Shown: piece by piece, positions 16,140 through 39,781 of the stretch
Numbering within the stretch: position 1 is the stretch's first letter
Layout: every line of letters begins with the position of its first letter
Assembly (NCBI GenBank): GCA_013202975.1
Contig: JABMQY010000039.1
Location: 1-61,900, forward strand
DNA from: Candidatus Saganbacteria bacterium
Lineage (GTDB): Bacteria > Margulisbacteria > WOR-1 > XYC2-FULL-46-14
Length of the DNA stretch: 61,900 bases
Reading direction: 5' to 3'
Made by a program: the position numbers and the translations under genes
Notes under the pieces: generated by a model
The model's database searches: none
The model's input: the letters and a program-made list of their open reading frames with translations, nothing else
Told to the model about the DNA's origin: nothing

Positions 16140-16165
16140 AGCTTATGGAGGTCTATTTAATATAA

Positions 16166-17979: not shown

Positions 17980-18991
17980 AGTTTTTCTGATTGCAGAGGC
18001 TGGAGTAAATCATAATGGCGATTTGGATGTTGCTAAAAAACTGATTGATGCGGCAAAATCGTCTGGTGCTGATGCAATAAAATTCCAAACATTTAAAACA
18101 GAAGAGCTGGCTAGTTTTAATGCTCCAAAAGCTAAATATCAAAAGAAAACGGTAAGAAATGAATCGCAGTTTAAAATGTTAAAAAGACTTGAATTGACAA
18201 ACGAGCAGTTTGAAAATTTGTTTTCTTATGCTAAAAAGAAGAAAATAATGTTCTTATCAACTCCTTTTTGTTTTGAGAGCGCTGATTTTCTTAAAAAACT
18301 GGGATTAAAATATTTCAAAATCAGCTCAGGTGATTTAACCAATTTACCTCTTTTGCGTAAGATTGCAGGCTGGAAGATGCCGATAATTTTATCCACTGGT
18401 ATGGGGAGTTTAGATGAGATTAGGGAGGCGGTCGAGGAAATTATTTCAAAAGGTAATAAACGATTGATTCTTCTTCATTGTGTTTCAAGTTATCCGGCGC
18501 GATTTGAGGATTTAAATTTAAATGCTATTAAGACGATGAAAAGTGAATTTGGTCTTCCTATTGGTTATTCTGACCATTCTTTGGGAATTGAGGCATCCCT
18601 TGCAGCGGTTTCCATTGGTGCTGTTGTGATAGAGAAACATTTTACTTTAGATCGTAACATGAGCGGGCCGGATCATAAAGCTTCTCTTGAACCAGTTGAC
18701 TATGAATTAATGGTGAAAAGTATTCGGAATATAGAGAAATCTTTTGGTAATGGTATAAAAAGACCCCAAAGATGTGAATTGACAATGCGAAAGATTGTTC
18801 GCAAAAGTCTTGTTTCAGCTAACGACATTCCCAAACATTCAAAAATTGAGATGTCAATGCTTGCAATAAAGAGGCCTGGGACAGGAATTGCACCAAAGTT
18901 TCTAGATAGGGTTGTTGGGAGTATTGCTCTTGAGAAAATCGAAAAAGATAAAACAATGAAATGGAGAATGTTGAATGAAAAAGCCAATTGA
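17972..18991 (+). CDS. neuB: N-acetylneuraminate/legionaminate synthase (NeuB family, with SAF domain)
   Basis: FLIAEAGVNHNGDLDVAKKLIDAAKSSGADAIKFQTFKTEEL; KISSGDLTNLPLL; GYSDHSLGIEASLAAVSIGAVVIEKHFTLDRNMSGPDHKASLEP. Confidence 0.95.
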   Translation: MARVFLIAEAGVNHNGDLDVAKKLIDAAKSSGADAIKFQTFKTEELASFNAPKAKYQKKTVRNESQFKMLKRLELTNEQFENLFSYAKKKKIMFLSTPFCFESADFLKKLGLKYFKISSGDLTNLPLLRKIAGWKMPIILSTGMGSLDEIREAVEEIISKGNKRLILLHCVSSYPARFEDLNLNAIKTMKSEFGLPIGYSDHSLGIEASLAAVSIGAVVIEKHFTLDRNMSGPDHKASLEPVDYELMVKSIRNIEKSFGNGIKRPQRCELTMRKIVRKSLVSANDIPKHSKIEMSMLAIKRPGTGIAPKFLDRVVGSIALEKIEKDKTMKWRMLNEKAN

Positions 18992-20042
18992 ATCATTTCT
19001 GGTTAATAAAAAGACTACAATAAAACAAGCAATGAAACAGATGACGGAAATTGGTCAAAAAAGTTTGTTTGTTGTTGATCAAAAGCGCAGGCTACTGGGG
19101 TCTTTAAGTGATGGAGATGTTAGGAAATGGATTATTAATGGGGGGAGTATTAGAGAAAAAATAACTAGGATCTACAATAAAAAGCCAAGATATGCAAAAA
19201 AGAATTTCGAGTTAGAGGATATCAAAAAATTGATGCTGAAATTAGTGATTTCAGCTGTTCCTGTTGTTAATGAGAATAATGAAATTGAAAGCATTCAAAT
19301 ATGGGAAGATGTTTTTGCAAATAAATTTTCCATGCAAAATAAACCTTTAGATATTCAGGTTGTTATTATGGCTGGAGGAAAGGGTACGCGGCTCGATCCC
19401 TTTACGACGATTTTACCCAAGTCATTAATTCCGATACATGGCAAGCCGATAATTGAATTGATAATGGATTGGTTCAATAGCTATGGGATCAGTGAATTCT
19501 TTGTTTCAATAAATCATAAGGCAAGAATGATTAAATCATATTTTGAAGATTCTAATAATAAATATAAAATATCTTACATTGAAGAGGATAGGCCACTTGG
19601 AACAGCTGGGAGCCTAAGGTTGATAAAAAATAAAGTTGAGAATCAATTTCTTGTAACTAATTGTGACATCATTCTAAAAGCTGATTGTGCCGAAATAATC
19701 CAATCCCATAAAAATAATGGGTATGATATGACATTGATAGTTTCATGCCGGCATTATAAGGTTCCATATGGAGTCTGTGAGATTGAAAATGGGGGGGTTC
19801 TTAGGCATATTAATGAAAAACCTGAATATGACTTACTAGTTAATACAGGTGTTTATGTTATGAATAAAGAATTACTTGATATAATCCCCAAAAATGTGAT
19901 TTTTAATATGAATGATCTTGTTAATAGGGCTATGAAAAAAGGTTTCAAAGTTGGCGTTTTTCCTATAAGTGAAGATTCTTGGATTGATATTGGACAGTGG
20001 GAAGAATATCACAAGGCGACTGAGAAATTGAGGATCTGTTAA
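18975..20042 (+). CDS. CBS-domain nucleotidyltransferase, PtmE-like (candidate GlcN-1-P guanylyltransferase)
   Basis: CBS pair SFLVNKKTTIKQAMKQM...LLGSLSDGDVRKWI, followed by VVIMAGGKGTRLDPFTTILPKSLIPIHGKPIIE nucleotidyltransferase domain; adjacent to neuB. Confidence 0.87.
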   Translation: MKKPIESFLVNKKTTIKQAMKQMTEIGQKSLFVVDQKRRLLGSLSDGDVRKWIINGGSIREKITRIYNKKPRYAKKNFELEDIKKLMLKLVISAVPVVNENNEIESIQIWEDVFANKFSMQNKPLDIQVVIMAGGKGTRLDPFTTILPKSLIPIHGKPIIELIMDWFNSYGISEFFVSINHKARMIKSYFEDSNNKYKISYIEEDRPLGTAGSLRLIKNKVENQFLVTNCDIILKADCAEIIQSHKNNGYDMTLIVSCRHYKVPYGVCEIENGGVLRHINEKPEYDLLVNTGVYVMNKELLDIIPKNVIFNMNDLVNRAMKKGFKVGVFPISEDSWIDIGQWEEYHKATEKLRIC

Positions 20043-20971
20043 TGAAGGTTATAATTTTTGGATTAGGTTCAATTGGGATTCGACATGCAAAGATTTTAAA
20101 ATCTATCCCAGATGTTCAGTTGTTTGCATTTCGCAGTAAGAAGGGGATGCCCGTTAATACCTTAGGGATTGAGGAAATTTTTTCCTGGGAAGAAGTTGAA
20201 AAAATAAAGGGGAATGTTGCTTTAATTGCTAATCCAACTTTTTTGCATGTTGAAACAGCTTTAAAATGTGCCAAATTAGGTATGCATCTTTTTATAGAAA
20301 AGCCTCTTTCTAATAATTGCGAAGGGGTTTTTGAGCTTAAATCTTTCTGTCGTAAAAATAAATTAATTTGTTATACCGCCTATTGTCTGCGTTTTCATGC
20401 TGTTGTTAAGAAGATCAAAGAAATTATTGATGGAAAAAAGCTTTTTCATGTAAGAATTGTTTGCTCTTCTAATTTGCCTGATTGGAGGAAGAATACAGAT
20501 TCTAAATCCAGTTATTCTTCATCTGTAGCCCAGGGGGGGGGAGTTTTGCTTGATTTGTCTCACGAGTTTGACTATATCCAATATCTTTTTGGGGAAATTG
20601 ATAAAATGCAGGCTGTTTTTGGCAGGGCCAGTAATGTTACTCAGGATGCGGAGGACTTTGCAGATGTTTTGATAAAAATGAATAGTTCGCTCTTTATTAA
20701 TTTGCATCTAAATTTTTTAAGTCTTATAAATGAGAGAAGCATCAAGATAGATTTTAAACATGGTTATTTAGTTGCTGATTTAGTAGGGGATCAAATTGAA
20801 TATTCTTATGATAACAAGAAAGAGATCCTTAAATTAAATATGGAAAAAGATGCGTGTTTGAGGGAGCAGATCAACTATTTTTTAAATAGTCTTTCAAATA
20901 AACAAATTATGAATAATTTGGATGAATCTATTCCGTTACTTGAAAAAATTTTGGAGCTAAAAGATGGGTAA
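20042..20971 (+). CDS. Gfo/Idh/MocA-family oxidoreductase, PtmF-like position
   Basis: KVIIFGLGSIGIRHAKILKSIPDVQLFAFRSK...HLFIEKPLSNNCEGV; lies between ptmE-like and CMP-sugar synthetase genes. Confidence 0.85.
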   Translation: MKVIIFGLGSIGIRHAKILKSIPDVQLFAFRSKKGMPVNTLGIEEIFSWEEVEKIKGNVALIANPTFLHVETALKCAKLGMHLFIEKPLSNNCEGVFELKSFCRKNKLICYTAYCLRFHAVVKKIKEIIDGKKLFHVRIVCSSNLPDWRKNTDSKSSYSSSVAQGGGVLLDLSHEFDYIQYLFGEIDKMQAVFGRASNVTQDAEDFADVLIKMNSSLFINLHLNFLSLINERSIKIDFKHGYLVADLVGDQIEYSYDNKKEILKLNMEKDACLREQINYFLNSLSNKQIMNNLDESIPLLEKILELKDG

Positions 20972-21683
20972 GAGGAAGGTTTTAATAACTATAGCTGCTC
21001 GTGGAGGTTCAAAAGGGGTAAATAATAAGAATATTCGTAAAATAGGCGGTTTGCCTCTAATAGCGCATACTATTATGCAAGCGAAAAAGTGGGGAAAGGC
21101 TGATCGCATTGTTTGCTCAACAGACTCTGAAAAAATTGCAGCAATTGCAAAAAAAAATGGGGTCGAAGTACCTTTTGTGCGTCCCATAGAGCTCGCAACC
21201 GATACAATTGGTAAAATAGAAGTGATAAGACATGCCTTGGAGACTGTTGAGCGGCTGAGTGGGGAGAAATATTCAATTGTTATTGATCTTGATGTAACTG
21301 CGCCTATCCGAAAAATTAGTGATATTGAAGGAGCTTATCAACTGTTTTTGAGTAAAAATCCAAATACTGTTTTTAGTGTTGTTTCTAGTCGTCGAAACCC
21401 GTATTTTAATATGGTTGAGTTAGATGCTAATGGATATTTTTCCATTGTAAAAAAAACGGGATCATCTGTTGTGCGCAGGCAAGATGCTCCTAGTGTATAC
21501 GACTTGAATGCTTCAATTTATGTGTATGACAGAAATTATCTTTTGGATAAAAAAAACAAATCGGCTATTTCAGATCGCTCTCTGATTTTTGAGATGCATG
21601 AATTTTCTGCATTTGATATTGACAGCGAAAGTGATTTAAAATTTGTTGAGTTTTTGTTGTCACAAGGAGTAGTTGATTTATGA
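20964..21683 (+). CDS. neuA: Acylneuraminate/legionaminate cytidylyltransferase (NeuA/LegF/PtmB)
   Basis: VLITIAARGGSKGVNNKNIRKIGGLPLIAHTI...RIVCSTDSEKIAAIAKKNGVEVPFVRP. Confidence 0.93.
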   Translation: MGKRKVLITIAARGGSKGVNNKNIRKIGGLPLIAHTIMQAKKWGKADRIVCSTDSEKIAAIAKKNGVEVPFVRPIELATDTIGKIEVIRHALETVERLSGEKYSIVIDLDVTAPIRKISDIEGAYQLFLSKNPNTVFSVVSSRRNPYFNMVELDANGYFSIVKKTGSSVVRRQDAPSVYDLNASIYVYDRNYLLDKKNKSAISDRSLIFEMHEFSAFDIDSESDLKFVEFLLSQGVVDL

Positions 21684-25936: not shown

Positions 25937-27882
25937 TGCAAAAAAATATTGTTTATGAAAAATTAGGTTTATTTGGTCTAATTAATTTAATTATTTTAAA
26001 TAAGCAGGCAGAATATTTTAATATTTCCAGGTTTGCATGGTTATTGCTAAGGCTTTTTAGGTTGCAGGAGAGGATAAATCAAAAAAGGTGGCAGTCTGCC
26101 TCTATAACTGGGGATGATGGTGAATTGCTAGTACCAAAGATACATGAGGATATCACAAGTATTTGCCATGATATTGGAGAAGAAAGCCTGAATAACAGTT
26201 TTTTTAGACACTTCGATTCGAATAATTGTAATAAAATAAGGATTTTTTTGGCTAAAAAGCTGAAAGAGAGAATTGAAAGGAGAATCTTTTTGATAAATGT
26301 CTTGACCGCGGGGGATGTTTTTTGTGTTTCTGATAATCTATGTTTATTGGGTATTATGAAATATGCACAAAATAACGAGATTGAGCTTGAGCGTCACAAG
26401 TTTGCTTTGTCTGGTTTAATAAATTCAATTTATCTGATAATTAGATTTTCTTTGTTATTTCCTTTGTATCAATTATTTAAAACAATAATAAATAAGAGGA
26501 GATTTGCTTGCTCAAGACTTCCTGTAATTGCATCGTATTATAATTTGGTTGATATGCATTTAGACAAAGATAAAAGAAGTGCTCTTTTTCTATTTCTTAA
26601 ATCAAAGCTAAAACTAAAAGATGTTTTAATCTATTTTGATCGTGCGGATGTTCCTTGTACAGATGAAATGGTTGATGAGATGGATCGTTCCGGAATAAAA
26701 TATATTGCTATAAACAAAAAAGCTGCTTCGTCTAATCGAGTCCCGATCTGGAGCGTTAGTCGCACATTCTTTAAGGTTCTTTTAAGAAGGAATCTTAGTC
26801 TAATCTTTAATTTGTTTATGGCCTCTTTTAAAGGGGATTTTTTGAGACCGATTGATATTTGTGGGTTGTTTGAATTTAATTGTTTTTATGCGTATAATTT
26901 TGATTTTTATAAGTCACTCAATATCAAAATTGATAATATTGTTAGCTGGGATAGCCAGATTGTTCCAAGAGCAGCGGCGCTAAATGATTTGGGCGGCGTA
27001 TTTGTCCAATATCAGCTAGCAAACTCTCCCAAAGCAAATATAACCCTGGGTTCTGTTGCAGATGTTTATTTCTTGTTTGGTCCTTATTATAAGGATATCT
27101 TGTTGAAGTCAAAATCAGACATTAATTGTTTTGCATATAGTGGTTATATTACGGATTATTCGTTTGAGGCAGTTAGAAACAAATCTGCCTTACTGCGGCA
27201 GAAAATCATGGAAAATGGCGCAAAGTTTATTATTTCTTTTTTTGATGAATCATTTGGAGATTCCGAAAATGAGGTTTTTCCATCTACTAGAGCAAAGTCA
27301 ATATATGATTTCTTTGCTGAATTGGTTATAGATAATCCTGATATTGCAGTTATTCACAAGCCCAAGAAGGCCGGTTTTTCATTTGAATCTAAATTGGTTA
27401 ACCAGGCTCTTAAAACCAAAAGGTATATTTTATGGACAGGGGGAAAGTATCTAACTGATTCGTTCCCGAGCGAAATTGCCCAGGCTTCGGATTTATCTGT
27501 TAGTTTGCTTTTTGGCGGCACAGTTTTTCTTGAAACTATTCTTTCAAATGTGCCATCTGTTTTTCTTGATCTTGAGAAATTGTACTATTATGATGAATAC
27601 AAGATTAACGAAAAACAGTTTGTTTTTGATAACCTAGTAGACTTAAAAAAACATATTTTTTCTCTTAAAGGGAAGGTTCAAAAAAATGAGCCTTCCGCTG
27701 AACTTGTCGAAATGTTAAAGCAGAAAGATCCTTTTCAAGATGGCCGGGCAATTGAAAGAATAGGGGATTATCTGTATTTACTTTTTGAAGGGTTGAAAAA
27801 TGGGGGAGAAAAGGATTCTGTCCTGGCTTTTGCCTCAAATGAGTATGCAAAAAAATGGGGAGAGCAAAATATTGAGTGTTAA
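25936..27882 (+). CDS. Large (648 aa) putative GT-B-like surface glycan transferase
   Basis: GGVFVQYQLANSPKA...DVYFLFGPYYKDIL; SDLSVSLLFGGTVFLETILSNVPSVFLD resembles GT-B C-terminal domains. Start ATG overlaps the preceding stop. Confidence 0.5.
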   Translation: MQKNIVYEKLGLFGLINLIILNKQAEYFNISRFAWLLLRLFRLQERINQKRWQSASITGDDGELLVPKIHEDITSICHDIGEESLNNSFFRHFDSNNCNKIRIFLAKKLKERIERRIFLINVLTAGDVFCVSDNLCLLGIMKYAQNNEIELERHKFALSGLINSIYLIIRFSLLFPLYQLFKTIINKRRFACSRLPVIASYYNLVDMHLDKDKRSALFLFLKSKLKLKDVLIYFDRADVPCTDEMVDEMDRSGIKYIAINKKAASSNRVPIWSVSRTFFKVLLRRNLSLIFNLFMASFKGDFLRPIDICGLFEFNCFYAYNFDFYKSLNIKIDNIVSWDSQIVPRAAALNDLGGVFVQYQLANSPKANITLGSVADVYFLFGPYYKDILLKSKSDINCFAYSGYITDYSFEAVRNKSALLRQKIMENGAKFIISFFDESFGDSENEVFPSTRAKSIYDFFAELVIDNPDIAVIHKPKKAGFSFESKLVNQALKTKRYILWTGGKYLTDSFPSEIAQASDLSVSLLFGGTVFLETILSNVPSVFLDLEKLYYYDEYKINEKQFVFDNLVDLKKHIFSLKGKVQKNEPSAELVEMLKQKDPFQDGRAIERIGDYLYLLFEGLKNGGEKDSVLAFASNEYAKKWGEQNIEC

Positions 27883-29845
27883 GAAGTTAGTATTTTTGGA
27901 ATTTATTGATGAGGCGGATGCTTATCTGTCAAAGAATAAGAATATATCTGATGATACTCTTTTTATCGCTTTGATGCCGAGGATCAAGCTTTATCTAGAA
28001 AAAAAAGGCGTTAGGGTTGATTCTACTTACGGCTATTTTGACAATTCGTCTCACGCAAAAGTCTCTTTGTGGGTTGAGGAGGCAATTGGTTGTTTTGAGG
28101 ATGCGCTTGAAATAAAAGACAGTTCTTCAATATCAGAAACCTATCATAATTCGTTTATTTATTATCTTCGTTTTACTTTTACTTACTTAGCCTGGGTAAC
28201 CGAAGTTATTCATAATGCTTGCAAGAAGCATTTGCCGCAAGAGATTTGTGCCTGTATTCAGCAGCATAACCAGGTAACTACCCCATTAATATCAGACCAG
28301 GAGCGCTATCTTGGATTAATCTGTAGGGATTATTCTGCTAGACGGAGGATTGGGTTTTGTGGCCTTGATTTTAAGGTGAATCCTGTTAATGAAAATTTAA
28401 AGGGAGGATCAAATACATATTCAAACATTTTCATTCGTCTTGCCGCCAAAATCAATTTGTGGTGTTTTGCCCGTGCCTGTCAAAAGCCGGCAATTTTAGC
28501 TACGGGTTTTTCTTATGGCATGCCGGAGTTGTTTTTAAAATTACAAGATAGTTTTTCTGATTTTTCTTGGCTGCTTTTTATAGGGGCGAGAAGCTCCAAA
28601 CTCAAAATATTTTTATTAATGCTAGTTAATCTTTTTTCCGCAATTACAGGTATAAAAACAAGTCTTTTTAATGCACGGGTTCCGATTAATGTTGTTTTTC
28701 CTCTTGATTTTGTCGGGTATCTCTCTTTGGATATCAATGATGTTCAATTTAACCTTTGCCTGAACCAGACTTGGAAAAGGATTGATGCAATGCCCAAACA
28801 AATTTTCTTGTTTGAAGATGTGTTTTTGGGGAAGTTGATTAAAAAAAGACTTTCTGATGGTATTTTGCCGGAAATAAAAAGATTGCATAAAATGGTAGCC
28901 GGAATGGAAAAACTTGTTGCAAAAGCAAGGCCCTTTTTTGTTTTGTCCCCATTTAGCAGGTCAGAAACCTTTGCCTTGGGAGAAATCTGCAGGTTAAATG
29001 AGATTCCAGCTATGCTTATTTCCCATGGGACTCATATCCCTCCTAAAAATCGTGTTGAAGAAATTGAGCATGATCATTTAGGTCGTGGGGTTATTAATAC
29101 TGAATTTCCTTATACTGCGGCGCAGTCCCCCTGGGAAGTTAAATATGCTGACCACTTTAAGATAAAAAGTAAAGTTGTTAAAACGGGCCCCCTGCTTTGG
29201 TCAATAATTTCTGGGTCTCCACCCCCAAATTTAAAACAATTAATATTGGGTAAAAAATTTGCTGATAAAAGGGTTGTTTTACATGCCGCTACACAAAAAG
29301 CAAGGGAAAGCATGAGAATGCATATCAATGAGACAGCTGATGAGTATATACAAGAGATCCTTGATATTTTTCAGGCAATAAAGCAGATTAAAGAGGCCGT
29401 TTTAGTTGTTAAATTCCGCAGTACTTCTAACCTTTCTTTAAAAGATCTGTTAACTGCTTTGCCTCAATCCGACCAATTGATTGTTGTTACAAAGCCATCT
29501 TTGGTGGATTTGTTGAGTATAACTGATCTGTTGGTTAGTTTTCAATCAACAGTTATCCAAGAAGCAATTTTAAATAGAATTCCGGTGCTAATGTATGGCG
29601 GCAGAGGACGCTATCAGCATTTTCCTGCTTTCGTAGTCAAGCCTGGGATTATGCCTAAGAAATGCTCAGCCTATCACGCAGTAAACTGTGAGGATTTGCA
29701 ATTAACCCTTGAATGGCTTCTAAGGAATCATAGCGGCAGATGTTTGGATGATCAGCATATAAGGGAGCATCTGTTTCTTCCTGATGAAAAAGAGGGAATT
29801 ATTGATTTTATAAATAAATTAAGGGAGGAAAAAGTCTCTTTATGA
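27872..29845 (+). CDS. Large putative GT-B-like surface glycan transferase
   Basis: AMLISHGTHIPPKNRVEEIEHDHLGRGVINTEFPYTAAQSPWEVKY; TDLLVSFQSTVIQEAILNRIPVLMYG (GT-B C-terminal). TTG at 27872 with upstream GGGGAGAG is the likely start; ATG 27845 is the alternative. Confidence 0.5.
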   Translation: MSVKKLVFLEFIDEADAYLSKNKNISDDTLFIALMPRIKLYLEKKGVRVDSTYGYFDNSSHAKVSLWVEEAIGCFEDALEIKDSSSISETYHNSFIYYLRFTFTYLAWVTEVIHNACKKHLPQEICACIQQHNQVTTPLISDQERYLGLICRDYSARRRIGFCGLDFKVNPVNENLKGGSNTYSNIFIRLAAKINLWCFARACQKPAILATGFSYGMPELFLKLQDSFSDFSWLLFIGARSSKLKIFLLMLVNLFSAITGIKTSLFNARVPINVVFPLDFVGYLSLDINDVQFNLCLNQTWKRIDAMPKQIFLFEDVFLGKLIKKRLSDGILPEIKRLHKMVAGMEKLVAKARPFFVLSPFSRSETFALGEICRLNEIPAMLISHGTHIPPKNRVEEIEHDHLGRGVINTEFPYTAAQSPWEVKYADHFKIKSKVVKTGPLLWSIISGSPPPNLKQLILGKKFADKRVVLHAATQKARESMRMHINETADEYIQEILDIFQAIKQIKEAVLVVKFRSTSNLSLKDLLTALPQSDQLIVVTKPSLVDLLSITDLLVSFQSTVIQEAILNRIPVLMYGGRGRYQHFPAFVVKPGIMPKKCSAYHAVNCEDLQLTLEWLLRNHSGRCLDDQHIREHLFLPDEKEGIIDFINKLREEKVSL

Positions 29846-30747
29846 AGATATTAATTTCTACTAGTTCTTTTGGGAATTTTGACGATTCGCCAATCAGGAC
29901 ATTGGAGTCAAAAGGATTGGAAGTTGTCTTGAATCCATATAAAAGGAAACTTGCTGTTTCTGAGAGTATTGAATTGCTTAATGGAGTAGCTGGTTTAATT
30001 GCCGGGACAGAAGCTTTAACAGAGGATGTTTTGATTAAATCAAAAAATCTGAAGGTGATTTCTCGTTGTGGTGTTGGAATGGACAGTGTTGACCTAAAAA
30101 CTGCCCAAAGGTTAGGGATTGAGGTCATTAATACTCCGGATGCACCGACGCAATCTGTGGCTGAGCTTGCAATTGCTCTGATTTTTTCACTTTTACGGCA
30201 TATCTCTGTATCGGACAAGAATGTAAAAGAAGGTAAGTGGAACAAGTTGATGGGGAATCTTTTAATCGGCAAAACCTTGGGCATAATCGGTTATGGCAGG
30301 ATCGGGAGGCGGCTATGCCACCTTTTGTCACCTTTTGGATTAAACATAATTGCCCATGATATAAATGAGGATTCTAGCGCCAAATTTGTGTCGCTGGATG
30401 AACTTTTTGCCAATGCGGATATACTAACTATTCATGTTTCAACATCAAAATGTCTTATTGGTAAGAATGAACTAAAAAAGGTAAAACCCACCGCTCTTAT
30501 GGTTAATCTTTCTCGGGGGGGAGTTGTTGATGAGGATGCTTTGTTTTCTGCCCTAAAAGAGAAAAGGATTGCTGGAGCAGCAGTAGATGTTTTTAGCAAA
30601 GAGCCTTATTCCGGTCCATTAAGTGAATTTGATAATGTAATTTTAACTCCACATATTGGTTCGTACGCAAAAGAGAGCAGGATTGAAATGGAAAAACAGG
30701 CTGTTCACAATTTAATTAAAGCCTTTGAGATGAAAGGGGTATTATGA
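29842..30747 (+). CDS. D-3-phosphoglycerate dehydrogenase-like 2-hydroxyacid dehydrogenase
   Basis: SRCGVGMDSVDLKTAQRLGIEVINTPDAPTQSVAELAIALI; GKTLGIIGYGRIGRRLCHLL; VNLSRGGVVDEDALFSAL; ILTPHIGSYAKESR. Confidence 0.92.
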   Translation: MKILISTSSFGNFDDSPIRTLESKGLEVVLNPYKRKLAVSESIELLNGVAGLIAGTEALTEDVLIKSKNLKVISRCGVGMDSVDLKTAQRLGIEVINTPDAPTQSVAELAIALIFSLLRHISVSDKNVKEGKWNKLMGNLLIGKTLGIIGYGRIGRRLCHLLSPFGLNIIAHDINEDSSAKFVSLDELFANADILTIHVSTSKCLIGKNELKKVKPTALMVNLSRGGVVDEDALFSALKEKRIAGAAVDVFSKEPYSGPLSEFDNVILTPHIGSYAKESRIEMEKQAVHNLIKAFEMKGVL

Positions 30748-32279
30748 AAGTAATTGTTTTTGGAGGATCGGGTTTTTTGGGTAGTCATGTTGCTGATGCT
30801 TTATCAAAATCTGGACATGAGGTTACTATCTTTGATATAAAGCAATCTTCTCATTTAAAACAAAATCAAAAAATGATAATTGGGGATATTCTTGATCAGG
30901 TTGCGGTAGAAGCTGCCGTGGCTGGGATGGATTTGGTCTACCATTTTGCAGGAATTGCAGACATAAAAGAGGCCTTTGAGAAACGCCGTGAGGCAATTCA
31001 GTATAATATATTAGGAACCTTGAATTTGTTAGAAGCAAGCCGTTTAGGAAAAATTAAGCGGTTTATTTTTGCCTCAACAGTTTATGTTTGTAGTAACTCC
31101 GGGTCGATTTATCGAACTACCAAAAGAGCCTGTGAGTCCCTTATAGAGGATTATTTAAAGGCCTTCGATCTTGAATATACAATCCTTCGTTATGGTTCGT
31201 TATATGGTGCTCGGGCTGGGATGAACAATAGTGTATATCGGTTGATCTATCAGACAATAAAAGAAGAAAATCTGATTGAATTTTCAGCAAATCCTGATGA
31301 TGAGAGAAAATATATACATGTTGAAGATGCGGCTATTATGAGCGTTGATATCTTGGACGAAAAATATAAGAATCAGAGACTTATTTTGACCGGAAAGGAA
31401 TCGATAAAGGTTAGCGATTTATTTGCGGTTATAAAACAGATGGTTGGGAAGGAAATAAAAATTAAATATAGGTCTCCGGATCAAAATTTTCATTATAACA
31501 AGCATTATGATGATCAGCTTCAGCTCCTTGCCGGCAAAGAAATTTATGCCGGGAGAAACCTTAATGATCAGTTAAGCATGCTGGTTGAGAAAATTCAGGA
31601 GAGGGAGATTAAGAAAATCAAGAAACTAAAGGCAATCATTTTTGATTTTGATGGGGTTATCCTGGAATCTGTTGATATTAAAACAAAGGCCTTTGCAAAA
31701 CTTTTTGCCGATTACCCTGAGCATATTGATGATATTATAAAGCTTCATCTTGATAATGGCGGAATGTCGAGATTTAAGAAGTTTGAGATAATTTATCGTG
31801 ATTTTTTCAAGAAACCCCTTAGTGAAAGTAAGAGCCGGGAATTAGGCGGCCAATTTTCAAAAATTGTATTTGATGAGGTGTTAAGATGTTCTTTTGTAAA
31901 AGGTGCAAAGCAGCTATTAGACAAACATCTTGAGTGCTACGATTTTTATATTGTTTCTGGGACGCCTGAAGACGAGATCCGTTCAATAGTGGAAAAAAGA
32001 GGTTTAGGTTGTTATTTTAAGAAGGTTTATGGTTCACCTGCTTCAAAGGGGAATTTAATTGGCAAAATATTAAAGGATGAGGCCCTCATTCCCGATGAGG
32101 TTGTTTTTATAGGGGATTCGATAAATGATTATAAAGGTGCAAAGGAAGCTGGGGTGAAATTTATTGCCAGAAAATTGAGCCCTAAGATTAGTACCTTTGA
32201 CGGGTTAGATAATTATGCCATAGTTGATGATTTGGAGCAGTTTGATCATATACTTTGCGAAGAAAGGAGTGCTAAATAA
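30744..32279 (+). CDS. Fusion: NAD-dependent epimerase/dehydratase (N-term) + HAD-family phosphatase (C-term)
   Basis: KVIVFGGSGFLGSHVADALSKSGHEVTIFD (SDR); then LKAIIFDFDGVILESVDIKTKAF...FYIVSGTPEDEIRSIVEKRGL...VVFIGDSINDYKGAKEAGVKFI (HAD). Confidence 0.9.
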   Translation: MKVIVFGGSGFLGSHVADALSKSGHEVTIFDIKQSSHLKQNQKMIIGDILDQVAVEAAVAGMDLVYHFAGIADIKEAFEKRREAIQYNILGTLNLLEASRLGKIKRFIFASTVYVCSNSGSIYRTTKRACESLIEDYLKAFDLEYTILRYGSLYGARAGMNNSVYRLIYQTIKEENLIEFSANPDDERKYIHVEDAAIMSVDILDEKYKNQRLILTGKESIKVSDLFAVIKQMVGKEIKIKYRSPDQNFHYNKHYDDQLQLLAGKEIYAGRNLNDQLSMLVEKIQEREIKKIKKLKAIIFDFDGVILESVDIKTKAFAKLFADYPEHIDDIIKLHLDNGGMSRFKKFEIIYRDFFKKPLSESKSRELGGQFSKIVFDEVLRCSFVKGAKQLLDKHLECYDFYIVSGTPEDEIRSIVEKRGLGCYFKKVYGSPASKGNLIGKILKDEALIPDEVVFIGDSINDYKGAKEAGVKFIARKLSPKISTFDGLDNYAIVDDLEQFDHILCEERSAK

Positions 32280-32959
32280 TGAAACAGGAAATTGTTGCCG
32301 TTGTTGCGGTGCGCGAGGGATCGATTAGGGTGAAAGACAAGAATTTTCGTCCTTTTGCTTCGGAAAAGAGCTTGTTGCATCTTAAGATATCTCAATTAAA
32401 AAAATCAGGATGTTTTGACCATATCTATGTAACATCTGATTCTAGAAAAGCTAAGGAAATTGCACAAGAGCTGGGGGTTGAGTTTTTGGAGCGTGATCAT
32501 TATATGTGCAAAGGAGATACCCCTTGGTCTGAAGTAGTCCATTATATTGCATCTTCTGTTCCTGGAGATCCGATTATTTGCTGGGCCAATCCAACTAGCC
32601 CTTTTCAAGCAGATTATGCGGATGCAGTCAAAAAGTTTTTAGAGATTCAACCGGAGTATAATAGTCTTATTTCTGTTGAAGAGGTAAGAGAGTTTTTTGT
32701 TAATTCAAACGGTCGTCCGGCCAACCATAATTGGGGTTTTTGGCATGAGCGTTCTCAGGATTTGGAAAAATTAAATCGTATGACAACTGCTATTTTTATT
32801 GCCAAAAAGTCGGATATGATTAGTTGGCATTATATGATAGGAACAAAGGTATTTCTTTATTATGTCTCAAAGACAGAGGGGATAGATATTGATACTCCCG
32901 AGGATTTTAGTTTGGCCGAAAAAATCTACCTTTGCAGGAGTGAAAATGAACGAAAATAA
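32279..32959 (+). CDS. Cytidylyltransferase (NeuA/acylneuraminate cytidylyltransferase-like)
   Basis: IVAVVAVREGSIRVKDKNFRPFASEKSLLHLKISQLKKSGCFDHIYVTSDSRKAKEIAQELGVEFLERDHYMC; WANPTSPF; GIDIDTPEDFSLAE. Confidence 0.87.
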   Translation: MKQEIVAVVAVREGSIRVKDKNFRPFASEKSLLHLKISQLKKSGCFDHIYVTSDSRKAKEIAQELGVEFLERDHYMCKGDTPWSEVVHYIASSVPGDPIICWANPTSPFQADYADAVKKFLEIQPEYNSLISVEEVREFFVNSNGRPANHNWGFWHERSQDLEKLNRMTTAIFIAKKSDMISWHYMIGTKVFLYYVSKTEGIDIDTPEDFSLAEKIYLCRSENERK

Positions 32960-34661
32960 AAAAATTGAGCTGCTTGATTGCACTATCCGCGATGGCGGGT
33001 ATGTAAATAATTGGGATTTTGACAAGAAGCTGGTCCGTGAAACCTATCGGGCCCTTTCTAAGTCCGGGGTTGATTATGTTGAGCTTGGATACCATGGATC
33101 AGAAAAATATTTTGATAAAAGTAAGTTTGGGAGATTTAGGTTTTCTGATGCAGATGTTATTAATCAGATATGCGATGGAATAGATGGGGCTCAGGTAGCT
33201 TTAATGGTTGATTACGGCAAATTTGATTTGGCCGATTTAATTCAATACAAAGATTCTCCGGTGAAGCTCATTCGTTTAGCTTTTCATAAAGATAAACTTG
33301 AAGAGGCATTAGGTGTAGTTTCTTCCATAAATAAAATGGGGCTAAAAACATCTGTAAATCTTATGGGGTTTGTAGGTTATACTGTCGAGGAACGTATGAA
33401 ACTTTTAACGCTGCTCAAAGGGATTTCCCTGGACTATGCTTATGTAGCCGATAGTTATGGGTCAATGTTTCCAAATCAAATTGGCGATTTTTTTAGACCT
33501 TTACTCGAATTAGACCATATCAAATGGGGATTTCATCCTCATAATAACCTGCAAATGGCTTTTGCTAACTCTTTGGCAGCAATAGATGCGGGTGCTGTTA
33601 TTATAGACGGATCGGTCTTTGGTATGGGAAGAGGAGCGGGGAATTTGCCGAGTGAAATTATGCTGGCTTACCTGCACCATTTAAAGCCGGATAAATATAA
33701 TGTAATCCCGGTTTTGAATTTGATTGATCGTTATTATCAGGATCTCTATAAAAAATACGGATGGGGATATAACTTACCCTATATGCTTTCCGGAACGTAT
33801 GGATGCCATCCTAATTATGCAAAAAATCTGGTTGAGAGACAAGAATATGAAATTAAGGATATTTGGAATATTTTTGAGGTGATTGCCGCCAATAATCCGG
33901 TCGGCTTCAAGAAAGAGCTGGTTGATGAAATATTAAGAAAGGGGCTTTTCACTAAAAAACTATCCACAACTTCAGGTAAAAAGTCTCTTGAGACAAATAG
34001 TTATTCTAGCGTGTCAGTTCCTTACCTAAACAGGCATAAAAACAGAGATTTTCTTGTTTTAGCTAATGGGCCAAGCTTAAAAGAATATCAGCATGAGATA
34101 CAATCTTTTATTGAAAAATTTGATCCGATTATCCTTGGGGGGAACTTCCTGGGCGGATTGTTTAAGCCGCACTATCACGGTTTTGCAAATAAACGCAGGT
34201 TTACCGATTATGTTGATACGGTTGACAAAGATTCAAAGCTTCTTATAGGCCAGAATATTCCAAAAGAGATGATAAATGAGTATGCAAAGCGTGATTATGA
34301 GCTTGTTTATTATGAAAATACTCTGGAAAATACGTTTGACATACAAAATGGGGTTATCTCCTCAAGCTGCAGAACTATTTCTGTCCTTTTAGCTGCAGTG
34401 GCTTTAGTAATGGGGGCAAAAAAGATCTTTATTGTCGGAATGGATGGTTATATGGGCAATTCTCAGGACAAAATTCATCATTTTTATAAAGAGAGAAATG
34501 AAACAGAGAATTTGAATGAACTAAGGGAGAGAAATGATTGGAATTTAGTCTTTTTGAAGCAAATTGATGATTATATGATGTCTTTGGGGCTGGAGGGGCT
34601 GCATATTCTAACTCCGACAAATTATAAAGAATTTTATAAGGGGATAAAGAATTATATATGA
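32946..34661 (+). CDS. Fusion: HMGL-like (DRE-TIM) aldolase + C-terminal DUF115/GT42-like domain
   Basis: KIELLDCTIRDGGYVNNWDFDKKLVRETYRAL...VELGYHG, GFHPHNNLQMAFANSLAAIDAGAVIIDGSVFGMGRGAGNLPSE (HMGL); FLVLANGPSLKEYQHEIQSFI...GAKKIFIVGMDGYMG (DUF115/GT42-like). Start placed at ATG 32946. Confidence 0.82.
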   Translation: MNENKKIELLDCTIRDGGYVNNWDFDKKLVRETYRALSKSGVDYVELGYHGSEKYFDKSKFGRFRFSDADVINQICDGIDGAQVALMVDYGKFDLADLIQYKDSPVKLIRLAFHKDKLEEALGVVSSINKMGLKTSVNLMGFVGYTVEERMKLLTLLKGISLDYAYVADSYGSMFPNQIGDFFRPLLELDHIKWGFHPHNNLQMAFANSLAAIDAGAVIIDGSVFGMGRGAGNLPSEIMLAYLHHLKPDKYNVIPVLNLIDRYYQDLYKKYGWGYNLPYMLSGTYGCHPNYAKNLVERQEYEIKDIWNIFEVIAANNPVGFKKELVDEILRKGLFTKKLSTTSGKKSLETNSYSSVSVPYLNRHKNRDFLVLANGPSLKEYQHEIQSFIEKFDPIILGGNFLGGLFKPHYHGFANKRRFTDYVDTVDKDSKLLIGQNIPKEMINEYAKRDYELVYYENTLENTFDIQNGVISSSCRTISVLLAAVALVMGAKKIFIVGMDGYMGNSQDKIHHFYKERNETENLNELRERNDWNLVFLKQIDDYMMSLGLEGLHILTPTNYKEFYKGIKNYI

Positions 34662-35662
34662 GTAGATTTGAAGAGCTAAAGGCTATATTAGCACAGGGAA
34701 AATTTTTTAAAATAGTCTGTGGCGCGGGTAATGAGGATGCAGAAGAGGTTAGAAAACTATCTTTAGTCTATACTCTGGCCGGAGCGCTGGGAATAGATGT
34801 TTCTGCCAATGTTGAGATAGTAAAGAGTTCGGTAATTGGGGTTGATCGGGCCCTTGAGCTGGCTCCCAAATTGGGTAAGCAGTTAAAAACCCGGCCATTT
34901 ATCAATGTAAGTATCGGGATGCGCGGTGACCCGCATATAAGAAAAGCAAAGATAGACCCCAACATTTGCTCTCAATGCGGAGTCTGCCTTGATAGATGTA
35001 TTCAAAAGGCAATTTCTCCTGACCATCAGGTGATTATGAAGCGTTGTATTGGTTGTGGCGATTGTTCATCGATTTGTCCTGTTGACGCGGTTTCTTTTTA
35101 TGATAAGAGATGTGAGTTAAGCAAAATTCTTCCTGAGTGCTTAAAGAATGGAGCTGAAACATTTGAATTGCATGCCATAATTCCGGATGATGATTCTGTG
35201 ATGAAGGACTGGATCCTCATGAATGACATTTTAAAAGATAATTATATAAGCATGTGTTTAGACCGCTCGCAATTATCGGATTCTCATCTGATAAGACGGA
35301 TAAAAGAGGCCTCAAAAATTACTGGGGATCGAATGATTGTCCAGGCGGATGGGGTGCCGATGAGCGGTGGAAACAATAGTTATAATACTACACTTCAGGC
35401 AATTGCTATTTCGGATATTGTTAAAAAAAGCAATCTTCCCGTAATGATTCTCGCTTCCGGAGGGACCAATTCTAAAACAGGGGAATTGGCCCGCCTCTGC
35501 GAAGTAAAGGTTCATGGGGTTTCAGTTGGAACCTTTGCCAGAAGATTAGTCGCGGATTTAATAAAAAATGAGGATTTTGAGAGTGATATTAACATGATTA
35601 AACGGGCGGTTTCAATTGCGGAGGGATTAGTAAAAGAAAATCTGGAGGAGATTTGTGGTTAG
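34658..35662 (+). CDS. LdpA/DUF561-like TIM-barrel protein with internal 2x[4Fe-4S] ferredoxin domain
   Basis: ICSQCGVCLDRCIQKAI and CIGCGDCSSICPVDAVSF clusters; GQADGVPMSGG-like VQADGVPMSGGNNSYNTTLQAIAI; PVMILASGGTNSKTGELARLC. Confidence 0.72.
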   Translation: MSRFEELKAILAQGKFFKIVCGAGNEDAEEVRKLSLVYTLAGALGIDVSANVEIVKSSVIGVDRALELAPKLGKQLKTRPFINVSIGMRGDPHIRKAKIDPNICSQCGVCLDRCIQKAISPDHQVIMKRCIGCGDCSSICPVDAVSFYDKRCELSKILPECLKNGAETFELHAIIPDDDSVMKDWILMNDILKDNYISMCLDRSQLSDSHLIRRIKEASKITGDRMIVQADGVPMSGGNNSYNTTLQAIAISDIVKKSNLPVMILASGGTNSKTGELARLCEVKVHGVSVGTFARRLVADLIKNEDFESDINMIKRAVSIAEGLVKENLEEICG

Positions 35663-36410
35663 CATTGGGATAAATGATAAGATCTTAGAAGATATTCAAC
35701 TAGTAATCTTTGATCGTGATGGGACCATGATTGATCTGTATCATTACTGGTCGCAGATGATAAAAATGAGATCAGTTATGATCTGTAATGAGCTTGGGCT
35801 GTCTGATAATCACAAAAATAATCTTATGTCCGTTATGGGGATTGATGTCGAAAAAAAGAAAATCAAACCGGAAGGGCCGGTCGGAATTAAGAAGAGAGAA
35901 GTTGTAATGCAGGCGGCAGTTGACTATCTTCTTTCTATCAAAATGGGCAATAAAAATGATTTTTGTATTAAAGTTTTTAGTGAAGTTGATAAAATCTCTC
36001 AAGATGAAGTTGCTAAGCTTATAAGTCCAATTGAGGGTCTATATCCCCTGCTTGAAGGGTTGAAGAGTTCGGGCTGCAAAATTGCTATTGCTACCACAGA
36101 CCGGACCGGCCGAGCCGAATTATCTGTAAAATTCCTAAAAATCAACGATAAGATCGATTTTGTTATCGGCTCAGATGGGGTTGAATGTTCAAAGCCGGCA
36201 CCGGACATGATTAATTTGATATTAAAGAAGCTTAATATAGACAAAACAAATACGATTATGGTTGGAGATGCGGCATCGGATATCAAAATGGGTATCAATG
36301 CAGGGGTAAAGGCCGGGATTGCGGTCTGTTCTGGAATAACTCCCGAGAAAAAATTGAGTGAACTGACCCCATTGGTTATAAAAGATATTTCTGAGATAAA
36401 AATTTATTAA
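35655..36410 (+). CDS. HAD-family hydrolase (phosphatase)
   Basis: IQLVIFDRDGTMIDLYHYW; IAIATTDRTGRAELSV; CSKPAPDMINLILKKL; TIMVGDAASDIKMGINAGVKAGIAV; GTG start. Confidence 0.9.
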   Translation: MVSIGINDKILEDIQLVIFDRDGTMIDLYHYWSQMIKMRSVMICNELGLSDNHKNNLMSVMGIDVEKKKIKPEGPVGIKKREVVMQAAVDYLLSIKMGNKNDFCIKVFSEVDKISQDEVAKLISPIEGLYPLLEGLKSSGCKIAIATTDRTGRAELSVKFLKINDKIDFVIGSDGVECSKPAPDMINLILKKLNIDKTNTIMVGDAASDIKMGINAGVKAGIAVCSGITPEKKLSELTPLVIKDISEIKIY

Positions 36411-36423
36411 ATAGGAGATGTTT

Positions 36424-37194
36424 ATGGCTAGCAATAATAGATTAAAGGAAAAAATAAAAAATGGAGAGACGGTTCTTGGTACCTGGTGTATATTGCCTTC
36501 GCCATCAGTAATTAATGTGATAGCGGCTGCAAGGTTAGATTTTGTAATAATTGATATGGAGCATGGTCCGATCGGTTTTGAAACTGCAGAAGATATGGTT
36601 CGAGCCGCCCAATCAGAGGATTGTTCTGCCATAGTTCGAGTCCCCAAAAATGATGAGTCGGATATACTGCGTGCTCTGGATATTGGGGCGGATGGTATTG
36701 TAATTCCGCATATAGAAAAAGTTGAAGATCGAAAACGGGCCATCAAAAGTATTAAGTATTTTCCCATTGGAGAGAGAGGCTTTTCTCCGTTTACACGAGC
36801 AGGGAGTTATGATCCGGCCGATCCAGCAGTTCATACAAAGAGGGAAAACGAAAAGACCATGACGGTTTTGATTATTGAAGGGGTGGAAGGTGTAAAAAAT
36901 CTTGATAGCATAATTGACGATCAAAATATTGATGTGGTTTATTTTGGTTTGTGCGATCTATCCCAGGCTATTGGTGTTCCGGGAAAATTGGATGATCCCA
37001 AGCTAAAGGAGTATGTCTCTGCTTGTGTAAAAAAAGTAAAAGACAAAAACATGGCTGTTGGGGCATTTACCGACAGACCCGAAATGCTCAAGTGGTTCAA
37101 AGAGATTGGGATTCAATTTATTACCTATTCATTGGATACTACGGAATTATGCAGAAGTTTTAAACATTTCATTAAAGATTTTAATGATTATTAG
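36424..37194 (+). CDS. HpcH/HpaI-family class II aldolase (2-keto-3-deoxy acid aldolase type)
   Basis: RLKEKIKNGETVLGTWCILPSPSVINVIAAARLDFVIIDMEHGPIGFETAEDMVRAA; GADGIVIPHIEKVEDRKRAI. ATG 36424 has AGGAG 6 nt upstream. Confidence 0.93.
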   Translation: MASNNRLKEKIKNGETVLGTWCILPSPSVINVIAAARLDFVIIDMEHGPIGFETAEDMVRAAQSEDCSAIVRVPKNDESDILRALDIGADGIVIPHIEKVEDRKRAIKSIKYFPIGERGFSPFTRAGSYDPADPAVHTKRENEKTMTVLIIEGVEGVKNLDSIIDDQNIDVVYFGLCDLSQAIGVPGKLDDPKLKEYVSACVKKVKDKNMAVGAFTDRPEMLKWFKEIGIQFITYSLDTTELCRSFKHFIKDFNDY

Positions 37195-37200
37195 GAGTTA

Positions 37201-37944
37201 ATGATGGTGAAGATAGTTGGAATGGTGCCGGCACGCATTGAGTCAAGCCGTTTGCCCAGGAAAGCCCTGATTGAGATTGAGGGGATTCCGATGGTGATCC
37301 ATACCTGCAAGCGCTCTAAGCTGGCCAAAAGCTTAGAGGAGGTCTATTTGGTTACTGATAGTGAAGAGATACGAAGGGCAGGAGAGAAATATGGGATAAA
37401 GGTTATTATGACGGGCTGTCAGCATAAGTCTGGTTCGGATCGAATAGCCGAAGCTTGTCAGACGATTGAATCTGATATAGTGGTCAATATTCAGGGCGAT
37501 GAGCCGTTGGTTGATCCGAATCACATTGATGCAATTGTAAAACCTTTAATAGCCGATGCAACATTAAAAATTGCGGTTGGGGTTACAAAATATAATAAGA
37601 AAAATCGTCCTTCCGATATAAAAGCAGTATTGGATCTTGCTGGAAATATTATGTATTGTTCTCGAACAGATTTGCCATCTGATGCTAGAAAACCGGTTTC
37701 AGAACTATTAAAAATGTGTTTTATTGTTCCGTTTAGAAAGGATTTTATTCTTCAGTATGCTTCCTGGAACCCAACCCCTCTGGAAGGTATTGAATACAAT
37801 GAATATTTGCGGGTTTTGGAGCATGGTGTGAAAATGCGAGCGGTAGAAATTAATGATGCAAAAATCAGTGTTGATACGCCGGAAGATTTGGAGATAGTAA
37901 GAGATATTATGCAAAAGGATAAAATAAGGCATTTATATGGATAA
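37201..37944 (+). CDS. 3-deoxy-manno-octulosonate cytidylyltransferase-like (KdsB family)
   Basis: VKIVGMVPARIESSRLPRKALIEIEGIPMVIHTCKRSKLAK; SGSDRIAEACQTIESDIVVNIQGDEPLVDP; CFIVPFRKDFILQYASWNPTPLEGIEYNEYLRVLEHG. Confidence 0.92.
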   Translation: MMVKIVGMVPARIESSRLPRKALIEIEGIPMVIHTCKRSKLAKSLEEVYLVTDSEEIRRAGEKYGIKVIMTGCQHKSGSDRIAEACQTIESDIVVNIQGDEPLVDPNHIDAIVKPLIADATLKIAVGVTKYNKKNRPSDIKAVLDLAGNIMYCSRTDLPSDARKPVSELLKMCFIVPFRKDFILQYASWNPTPLEGIEYNEYLRVLEHGVKMRAVEINDAKISVDTPEDLEIVRDIMQKDKIRHLYG

Positions 37945-39781
37945 ACTTTGTAAAAGAAGACTGATCTTAATTTCAGACAGAAAAGATTTTCCAAAAACAG
38001 AGTCCAGGGAAGATTGTTTTTGGGTTTTTCTTGGCCGCAAGTATGATCGTTTAAATGAATTAAAAAAGACTGCGCCTAAAGGATTTCAATTCATTGATAT
38101 TGGAGACCTGATCTACGATGAGTCTTATAAGCTTAGACGACCTTACCTTGATTACATCGGTTCACTTAGTTCCCGGTTTTCTTCTCTATCCTGGTGGGTT
38201 TCCCGGATTTCCGAAAAAAATGTAATGGTAAGTCCTGTTTTTCTGTATTTGTGTTATCTAAAGATAATTGTGAAGCTGGCCAATGAAGAGTTAAGAGGCA
38301 GAGATCTTTGTGTTTTTTCTGAGAGCCCGGAACTTTTGAATACAATTGCTAAATTGCCGGTTTTTTCAAATTATTCTCTCAAAAAGTCTTTTCGCTCCAA
38401 TTTGATGAATGAATATCTTTTTTGTCTTATTAGGTTGTCTTATTTTATTGCCCAAAGTTTTTGCCGGAAGATATTGGCCATTAGCTCTCGTCTTTACATC
38501 AGAAAGACCACAATAAATAAAAAATCTTCTCTGGTAGTTATGCGAACATGGGTTAATGATAAAAACTTAGGAGAGAACGGGGTTTTCAATGATTCCTATT
38601 TTGTAAATCTCTATGATTATTTAAAAATAAAAAGCGGCCTCAATGTAGCAATTATCCCGATTTTGTATAATATCGAGCGACCTTTAAAGCAGGTCTTTCG
38701 CTGGTTTAGGGAATCAAGCTCTTTTTTTATTATTCCGGAGGATTTTTATCATTTTAGTGATTATATAAAAAGTATTTACATTTCTTTTAGATCTTCCCTG
38801 TTTTTTAGGGATTCTTTTGATTTTATGGGGTTGGATCTAAGTCTAATATTCAGAGAGGAGGCCAGGAAGACCTTGTTTGAGCCGGGTGCCTTACAGGTTA
38901 TTATGCATTATTTTTTAATAAAGAGGCTTAAGGCAAAAGACCTTAAGATAGAGAATTTTATTTTTACTTTTGAAAACATGTTCCCCGAAAAACCTTTGAT
39001 CCTGGGGATTGAAAGATTTTATCCTGGAGCCCAAAAGATAGGTTTTCAGCATAGTGTTTTATTTCCCTTATTATTGAGTTTGTATGTTTCAAATAATGAG
39101 CTTGGATTTATCCCAATGCCTGATAAGATCATTTGTTCAGGAAAGTTTTCTATGAATAAGATGATAGAGGAGGGATATCCATCAACTGTCATGACTCTTG
39201 GTCCGGCTCTTCGTTTTCAGCATCTTTTGGGTTCAAGTAAAAATGACAATGAAGAAGCTAATTTAGTTAAAGTTGTCTTAATTGCTTTACCCCTTTCGCC
39301 AAGTGGGGTCGAAGATGTGCTTTTTAAGGCCTGGCAGGCGCTTTTGGGTTTTGCCGATATTAAGATTAAATTGAAAGCCCATCCCATGATGTCTAAATCT
39401 GAGCTTTCATCTGTTTTTAATAAGCTTAATATTGTTGAAAATAAGGTCGAATCTGTCCGTGGTCCTATGAAAGATATTCTTCCAAAGATCGATCTTATGA
39501 TTGCTGCTGCCTCGGGAGCGGTTTTGGATGCAATTGCTTATGGAGTTCCGGTAATTAGGGTGAGGCAGGATCTTGATCTGAATCTTGATCCTATGGATTG
39601 GTTTCCTAGAACTGAATTGCAATTTGTTGCGAGAACAGCTCAGGAATTAAAAAATGAAATAAGACGAGCCCTATCTTTGGACCGGTCACAACTAAAGCAA
39701 TTGAAGGTAGAGGGAAAGAGTCTGATTGAGCAGTGTTTTTCTCCTGTAGAGGAGAAGGTGATGGCTGTTTTTATGGGGTAA
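37937..39781 (+). CDS. Large putative GT-B-like surface carbohydrate biosynthesis protein
   Basis: KIGFQHSVLFPLLLSLYVSNNELGFIPMPDKIICSGKFSMNKMIEEGYP; DIKIKLKAHPMMSKSEL; IDLMIAAASGAVLDAIAYGVPVIRVRQDLDLNLDPMDW. Confidence 0.6.
   Translation: MDKLCKRRLILISDRKDFPKTESREDCFWVFLGRKYDRLNELKKTAPKGFQFIDIGDLIYDESYKLRRPYLDYIGSLSSRFSSLSWWVSRISEKNVMVSPVFLYLCYLKIIVKLANEELRGRDLCVFSESPELLNTIAKLPVFSNYSLKKSFRSNLMNEYLFCLIRLSYFIAQSFCRKILAISSRLYIRKTTINKKSSLVVMRTWVNDKNLGENGVFNDSYFVNLYDYLKIKSGLNVAIIPILYNIERPLKQVFRWFRESSSFFIIPEDFYHFSDYIKSIYISFRSSLFFRDSFDFMGLDLSLIFREEARKTLFEPGALQVIMHYFLIKRLKAKDLKIENFIFTFENMFPEKPLILGIERFYPGAQKIGFQHSVLFPLLLSLYVSNNELGFIPMPDKIICSGKFSMNKMIEEGYPSTVMTLGPALRFQHLLGSSKNDNEEANLVKVVLIALPLSPSGVEDVLFKAWQALLGFADIKIKLKAHPMMSKSELSSVFNKLNIVENKVESVRGPMKDILPKIDLMIAAASGAVLDAIAYGVPVIRVRQDLDLNLDPMDWFPRTELQFVARTAQELKNEIRRALSLDRSQLKQLKVEGKSLIEQCFSPVEEKVMAVFMG

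Follow-up and report, generated by a model that had tools for sequence, protein, structure and literature searches.

Candidate aldolase-based routes to CMP-activated ulosonic acids in a conserved gene block of a Margulisiibacteriota genome

Results

Layout of the block

The window analyzed here, a stretch of 61,900 nucleotides (GenBank assembly GCA_013202975.1, contig JABMQY010000039.1), is contig G000:C23 of a Margulisiibacteriota metagenome-assembled genome (MAG) of 2.2 Mb that is 90.9% complete. At positions 29842 to 39781 it holds nine open reading frames (ORFs), all on the + strand and each overlapping or almost touching the next, which we examined as a candidate pathway to ulosonic acids activated with cytidine monophosphate (CMP). 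The nine are called A1 to A9 in order and the gene directly upstream u9; L and G numbers denote loci found elsewhere and genomes, respectively, G000 being the host of the window.

Families were assigned by Pfam and NCBIfam profile searches of the block proteins. A1 (29842..30747) is a D-2-hydroxyacid dehydrogenase resembling phosphoglycerate dehydrogenase (2-Hacid_dh, 171 bits), and A2 (30744..32279) fuses a short-chain dehydrogenase/reductase (SDR; residues ~1 to 290; Epimerase, 127 bits) to a HAD phosphatase (~295 to 511; HAD_2). A3 (32279..32959) is a NeuA/PseF-like cytidylyltransferase (CTP_transf_3) whose likeness to PseF is weak. In A4 (32946..34661), an HMGL-type aldolase domain (HMGL-like, 92 bits) is followed from ~33993 by a DUF115/GT42-like transferase domain. 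A5 (34658..35662) is LdpA-like (LdpA_C and Fer4), predicted to fold as a triosephosphate isomerase (TIM) barrel, and carries a ferredoxin insert of the 2[4Fe-4S] type with eight invariant cysteines. It is followed by A6 (35655..36410), a HAD phosphatase of a second type (HAD_2), and A7 (36418..37194), a class II aldolase of the HpcH/HpaI family (HpcH_HpaI, 94 bits). A8 (37201..37944) is a KdsB-like CMP-ulosonate cytidylyltransferase (TIGR00466, 158.8 bits; cut-off, 155.2) with a substrate motif, KMCFIVPFR, that differs from the one for 3-deoxy-D-manno-oct-2-ulosonic acid (Kdo), while A9 (37937..39781) was assigned by profile match as a large GT-B-like transferase related to TIGR04326/BFO_1060. 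The searches bear out the nine consecutive genes and their families as first called in the initial annotation from the letters alone, with one small correction: A4 starts at the ATG at 32946, where conservation begins, and not at 32889.

Upstream, positions 15147 to 21683 form a legionaminate-type locus, in which the LegB, NeuC, NeuD, and NeuB models score over their curated cut-offs and which also holds a PtmE-like CBS-nucleotidyltransferase, a GFO/IDH oxidoreductase, and a cytidylyltransferase. Taking this locus and the block together, the window has one phosphoenolpyruvate (PEP)-dependent ulosonate synthase versus three CMP-ulosonate-type cytidylyltransferases.

Conservation in bacterial genomes

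The order A4-A5-A6-A7-A8 is kept in G001 (L040), in G006 (L041), and in the distant G056 (L044; A4, 30% identity), and A9 follows A8 in L040 and L041 (47% identity). Since the order recurs in three other genomes, the block is no chance assembly. Full-length relatives of A5 occurred in 4 of the 75 sampled genomes of the phylum, namely, the four with the block, and always beside A4, A6, A7, and A8.

A shorter cassette, a trio of aldolase::glycosyltransferase fusion, KdsB-like gene, and HAD gene, was found in a Pelagibacteraceae genome (L039), in Omnitrophica (L038), in G052 (L043), and on a Leisingera caerulea plasmid (L092). Among the plasmids of PLSDB, the Leisingera trio was the only close relative, and a scan of named genomes with a single protein gave three loci only. 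The phylum of G188, a genome discussed below, was sampled with three genomes. The expectation that all nine families would be conserved together thus held for A4 to A8, in part with A9, whereas A1, A2, and A3 recur only in other combinations.

The two aldolases and the fused transferase domain

The best NCBIfam match of the A4 aldolase half is 4-hydroxy-2-oxovalerate aldolase (122 bits; TIGR03217 cut-off, 286), and the Arg, the Asp, and the HxH of the HMGL site are invariant in all nine aligned sequences. For AbHpaI, a Glu/His pair, an Arg, and a metal-binding Glu and Asp have been named as catalytic or metal residues (PMC8560999). When aligned with HpaI-family structures, A7 carries all of these (EH, R, E, and D), and they are kept in four orthologues. 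The metal-binding residues of both A4 and A7 are intact, which does not point to the degenerate active sites raised in the initial annotation as a possible objection, although the His that follows RDG in DmpG is Tyr in A4.

The call of a DUF115/GT42 domain at the A4 C terminus needed profile and fold searches, the Pfam score being below cut-off. GT42 likeness came from a profile (CstII at E 0.013) and from the fold: the predicted structure (predicted local distance difference test score [pLDDT], 85.5) is closest to SteA, MptE, Maf, and human ST8SiaIII (GT29) among solved folds. PMC11339370 describes the Maf domain (pfam01973, the family of the sub-threshold match of A4) as similar to Cst-II and Maf as a transferase of nonulosonic acids and Kdo.

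A single-domain HMGL paralogue lies directly beside eda, the gene of 2-keto-3-deoxy-6-phosphogluconate aldolase, in many genomes, including G000 itself (L058:8067-9623). We rejected such paralogues as members of the same system on account of this eda linkage, which does no more than hint at 2-keto-3-deoxy acid chemistry.

Phosphatases and dehydrogenase

DxD and GDxxxD were present by eye in both HAD types, and the A6 orthologues of L040, L041, and L044 retain the two motifs. In the trio cassette, the HAD genes match the HAD half of A2 (E 1e-14 to 1e-27) and not A6, a relative of which also occurs in viral L214. Separately, the HAD gene after the KdsB-like gene of L044 (L044:4919-5450) is devoid of the N-terminal DxD part, owing to truncation or an assembly error. 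Homologues of A1 (37 to 39%) stand beside HpcH and KdsB genes in viral L265, L268, and L270, and another lies near the trio cassette of L043.

Cytidylyltransferases

The nucleotide motifs PAR-S-R-P-K and N-QGDE are invariant across eight aligned sequences of A8 and its relatives, and in each of G000, G001, G006, and G056 the genome's own A8 gene is the only full-length KdsB-family match that exceeds or approaches the cut-off. KdsB binds Kdo through the motif RHIGVYAYR (PMC7717453). At this position, A8 reads KMCFIVPFR, while KQVCIYxF or a close variant occurs in the trio, in the viral fusions, and in HMGL- and HpcH-linked KdsB-like enzymes alike. The canonical KdsB of G188 has KHLGIYAY there, and that of phage S-SCSM2R, which is encoded in a KdsA-KdsB pair, has IHMGIYGY. 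Because Gln is found at this position also in unlinked viral KdsB, it marks non-Kdo specificity at most. The signature shared by HMGL- and HpcH-linked enzymes points to CMP synthetases of one kind, which either aldolase may supply.

A NeuA-like gene directly precedes the aldolase::glycosyltransferase gene, as A3 does in the block, in L124 (G188) and L152. Two NeuA-type loci are linked to PfkB kinases, one of them close to 2-keto-3-deoxygluconate (KDG) kinases; in L124, a kinase related to KDG kinases follows the aldolase::glycosyltransferase gene. Together with the eda linkage, these kinases give a faint hint of 2-keto-3-deoxy-hexonate-like chemistry, which we hold with low confidence.

Searches for canonical synthases and transferase

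No KdsA match (TIGR01362) over the cut-off was found in G000, G001, G006, G056, G052, or G028. The best match in G000 reached 121 bits (cut-off, 314) in a protein of ~340 residues, as did that in G001 (99% complete); the match was shorter at contig ends and a fragment in G056. We read this protein as 3-deoxy-D-arabino-heptulosonate 7-phosphate (DAHP) synthase. WaaA (PF04413) was likewise not found in the same six genomes but was present in G188 and in the Escherichia coli control. The single NeuB of G000 lies inside the legionaminate-type locus, so that the block has no second, dedicated NeuB. NeuB is present in G001 and G006 and was not found in cassette-bearing G056, while G028 and cassette-bearing G052 gave DAHP-type matches only, that of G052 being a weak fragment. 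A canonical kdsA feeding A8, which the initial annotation had named as a possible refutation, was thus not found over the cut-off in the genome.

The LdpA-like protein

A5 scored 151 bits with NF045992, far under the equivalog cut-off of 450. Its predicted structure (pLDDT, 75.5) is a TIM barrel with a poorly modeled ferredoxin insert, and its fold neighbors are TIM barrels led by TrpA. The A5-type gene co-occurs with an HpcH aldolase gene, and relatives are found in viral L214, L244, and L249. The initial annotation had assigned this protein no part in the pathway. A5 is probably a TIM-barrel iron-sulfur enzyme working with A7 and not a clock protein; that it acts on a phosphorylated substrate is weakly suggested.

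Viral loci

IMG/VR was scanned with the aldolase alignment, the search patterns being taken from the aldolase only, and the 62 loci obtained fell into 40 clusters at 90% identity. In 34 of the 40, the aldolase was joined to a CMP-sugar cytidylyltransferase, either in one ORF (20 with KdsB and 4 with a NeuA-like domain, the latter exemplified by L155, L189, L192, and L197) or in an adjacent gene (7 KdsB and 3 NeuA-like); 6 had neither. The fusions were checked with Pfam on examples. GT42-like, aldolase, and KdsB genes are separate neighbors in L203, L205, and L207. Phage origin was backed by clamp-loader or exonuclease matches in the three contigs checked (L161, L162, and L206). The aldolase-KdsB fusion was not found in named phages, and that of L161 (L161:7998-9692) had no PHROGs match although such fusions are common among the viral contigs found.

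The reverse scan, with KdsB, was seeded by aldolase-linked sequences, and the best 80 of 447 matches gave 46 clusters, so the proportions are biased: 24 were linked to an HMGL aldolase and 4 to HpcH, and KdsA was not found near any of these 46. In L244 and L249, a relative of A5 (41 to 51%), a small HAD-like gene, and a relative of HpcH (40 to 43%) directly precede KdsB. A protein of similar size, HpcH-like by eye, lies directly before the LdpA-like gene in both (L244:989-1768 and L249:978-1724). L268 and L270 have a GT42-like domain, HpcH, an A1-like dehydrogenase (37%), and KdsB in this order, and L265 combines an A1-like dehydrogenase (39%), HpcH (Pfam, 31.8 bits), an SDR like that of A2, and KdsB. 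Relatives of A5, A6, the aldolase, and A7 are together in L214. Overall, the viral and bacterial loci indicate that nearly every part of the block recurs elsewhere, in differing combinations.

Discussion

Proposed route

To our knowledge, the carbon chain in the Kdo, sialic, legionaminic, and pseudaminic CMP-ulosonate routes always comes from a PEP-dependent synthase. Synteny, the trio, the viral fusions, the HpcH-KdsB loci, the replaced Kdo motif, and the failure to find KdsA or WaaA indicate that aldolases most likely stand in the place of this synthase. We consider it likely that the block encodes the aldolase-based synthesis of at least one CMP-activated 2-ulosonic acid, for transfer to a surface glycan. 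In such a route, whose reactions are all inferred, the HMGL half of A4, A7, or both would couple an aldehyde or an aldose phosphate with a 2-oxo acid, which is probably pyruvate but may be hydroxypyruvate supplied by A1. The HAD half of A2 or A6 would remove the phosphate, A8 or A3 would form the CMP sugar, and the DUF115/GT42-like domain of A4, along with A9, would transfer it. The original idea that aldolases replace the PEP-dependent synthase and feed CMP-transferases agrees with every test that could be applied to it here, namely, co-conservation, fusions, intact metal residues, the altered motif, and the KdsA search. The initial reading as a whole is supported in part: the nine genes are not a single conserved unit, and pyruvate as the nucleophile, a 3-deoxy product, and the point at which phosphate is removed are postulates. 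With somewhat less assurance, we favor a wider class of CMP-ulosonate pathways in uncultured bacteria and large phages, in which two unrelated families of class II aldolases, HMGL and HpcH, would replace KdsA/NeuB, with aldolase-cytidylyltransferase fusions and an LdpA-like iron-sulfur TIM-barrel enzyme as a new catalytic partner.

Several observations weigh against this proposal. The HMGL subfamily of A4 has a Tyr in the place of the DmpG-type His after RDG, so its catalysis must differ in detail from that of DmpG. The C-terminal domain of A4 scored only 29 bits with PF01973 (MptE/DUF115; cut-off, 34.6), and its fold is also that of two proteins outside the sugar transferases, MptE and SteA. 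Most viral aldolase fusions are without a nearby HAD gene. As the genomes are MAGs, the absences reported above are individually weak and no proofs, though they agree with each other. Finally, the aldolase family also occurs with thiamine diphosphate (ThDP) enzymes, so its product need not always be CMP activated.

Alternative explanations

The last point opens a different reading, that the 2-oxo acid made by the HMGL aldolase is used by a ThDP enzyme for branched-chain CDP (cytidine diphosphate) sugars and that the CMP link is secondary. The aldolase does lie next to ThDP enzymes in L045 (L045:8106-11510), L182, L191, L200, L202, and L214, accompanied in L045 and L214 by RfbF/RfbH-like genes. 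In neither the window nor L038 to L041, L043, and L044, however, was a ThDP gene recognized beside the block, and the majority of viral aldolases are joined to a cytidylyltransferase in one ORF or in a neighboring gene. This account of the block is improbable, and the ThDP-linked loci are better taken as a second use of the same family, possibly toward branched-chain CDP sugars. Less probable still is that A8 activates ordinary Kdo made elsewhere while the aldolases serve unrelated catabolism. That A8 exceeds the TIGR00466 cut-off and that phage S-SCSM2R has a KdsA-KdsB pair would fit; we nonetheless rejected the block as a Kdo supply on the KdsA, KdsB, and WaaA searches and the replaced motif, to which the aldolase-KdsB fusions and the viral KdsB clusters lacking a neighboring KdsA add.

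The two aldolases might instead catalyze successive steps toward one higher-carbon sugar, the LdpA-like enzyme carrying out an intervening reduction or lyase reaction. This is rather unlikely, yet it is the alternative to which we give most weight: four genomes, as well as viral L214, have A4, A5, A6, and A7 in company. On the other hand, HMGL accompanies KdsB without HpcH in the trio and the viral fusions, and HpcH accompanies KdsB without HMGL in L244, L249, L268, and L270.

Relation to known systems

The block shares with the Kdo pathway (KdsD-KdsA-KdsC-KdsB) a HAD-type phosphatase, a KdsB-type CTP transferase, and a subsequent CMP-ulosonate transferase but has an HMGL or HpcH aldolase for KdsA, a changed KdsB motif, and a genome in which WaaA was not found. 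The NeuA-like A3 and the DUF115/Maf- and GT42-like domain recall the nonulosonate pathways (NeuB/LegI/PseI with NeuA/LegF/PseF), whereas a second NeuB is missing from the block and G056 and G052 bear the cassette with no NeuB found. The block thus works like Kdo or nonulosonate synthesis and is a member of neither: it lacks the synthase by which they are defined, and in A8 the Kdo motif has been replaced. A4 resembles the 4-hydroxy-2-oxovalerate aldolases DmpG/BphI and structure 3dxi in its HMGL fold and its RD and HxH metal-site residues; it differs by the Tyr for His, by having no acetaldehyde dehydrogenase partner in view, and by its fusion partner, which is a transferase or, in viral loci, a cytidylyltransferase. 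A7 keeps the catalytic and metal residues of the HpaI/GarL class II pyruvate aldolases but lies in glycan loci beside KdsB rather than in aromatic or aldarate catabolism. A5 matches LdpA_C and Fer4 like cyanobacterial LdpA; it differs in its NF045992 score, which falls far short of the cut-off, in its linkage to HpcH and KdsB, and in the predicted TIM barrel. Among open PubMed Central papers, subscription literature being outside the scope, we found no prior description of the pathway, the fusion, or the gene combination.

If the proposal is correct, acidic surface sugars without a known origin could owe their synthesis to an aldolase route, whose genome signature would be an aldolase that is joined to, or lies next to, a KdsB carrying the motif KQVCIY or KMCFIVPF. 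Phages would then encode the synthesis of activated acidic sugars, the one-protein aldolase-CMP synthetases would be possible biocatalysts, and the LdpA family could have an enzymatic role.

Neighboring gene and additional observations

The gene u9 (27800..29845, + strand), directly upstream of A1, encodes a large protein with no match in the Pfam search. A homologue (28%) lies directly before the aldolase::glycosyltransferase gene of L037, and a protein resembling u9 by eye precedes the NeuA-like gene of L124; u9 is a probable transferase. Near aldolase genes of two phage-like contigs, we also observed proteins over the Pfam cut-off for GT29, the eukaryotic-type sialyltransferase family (L162:6557-7243 and L206:6522-7208).

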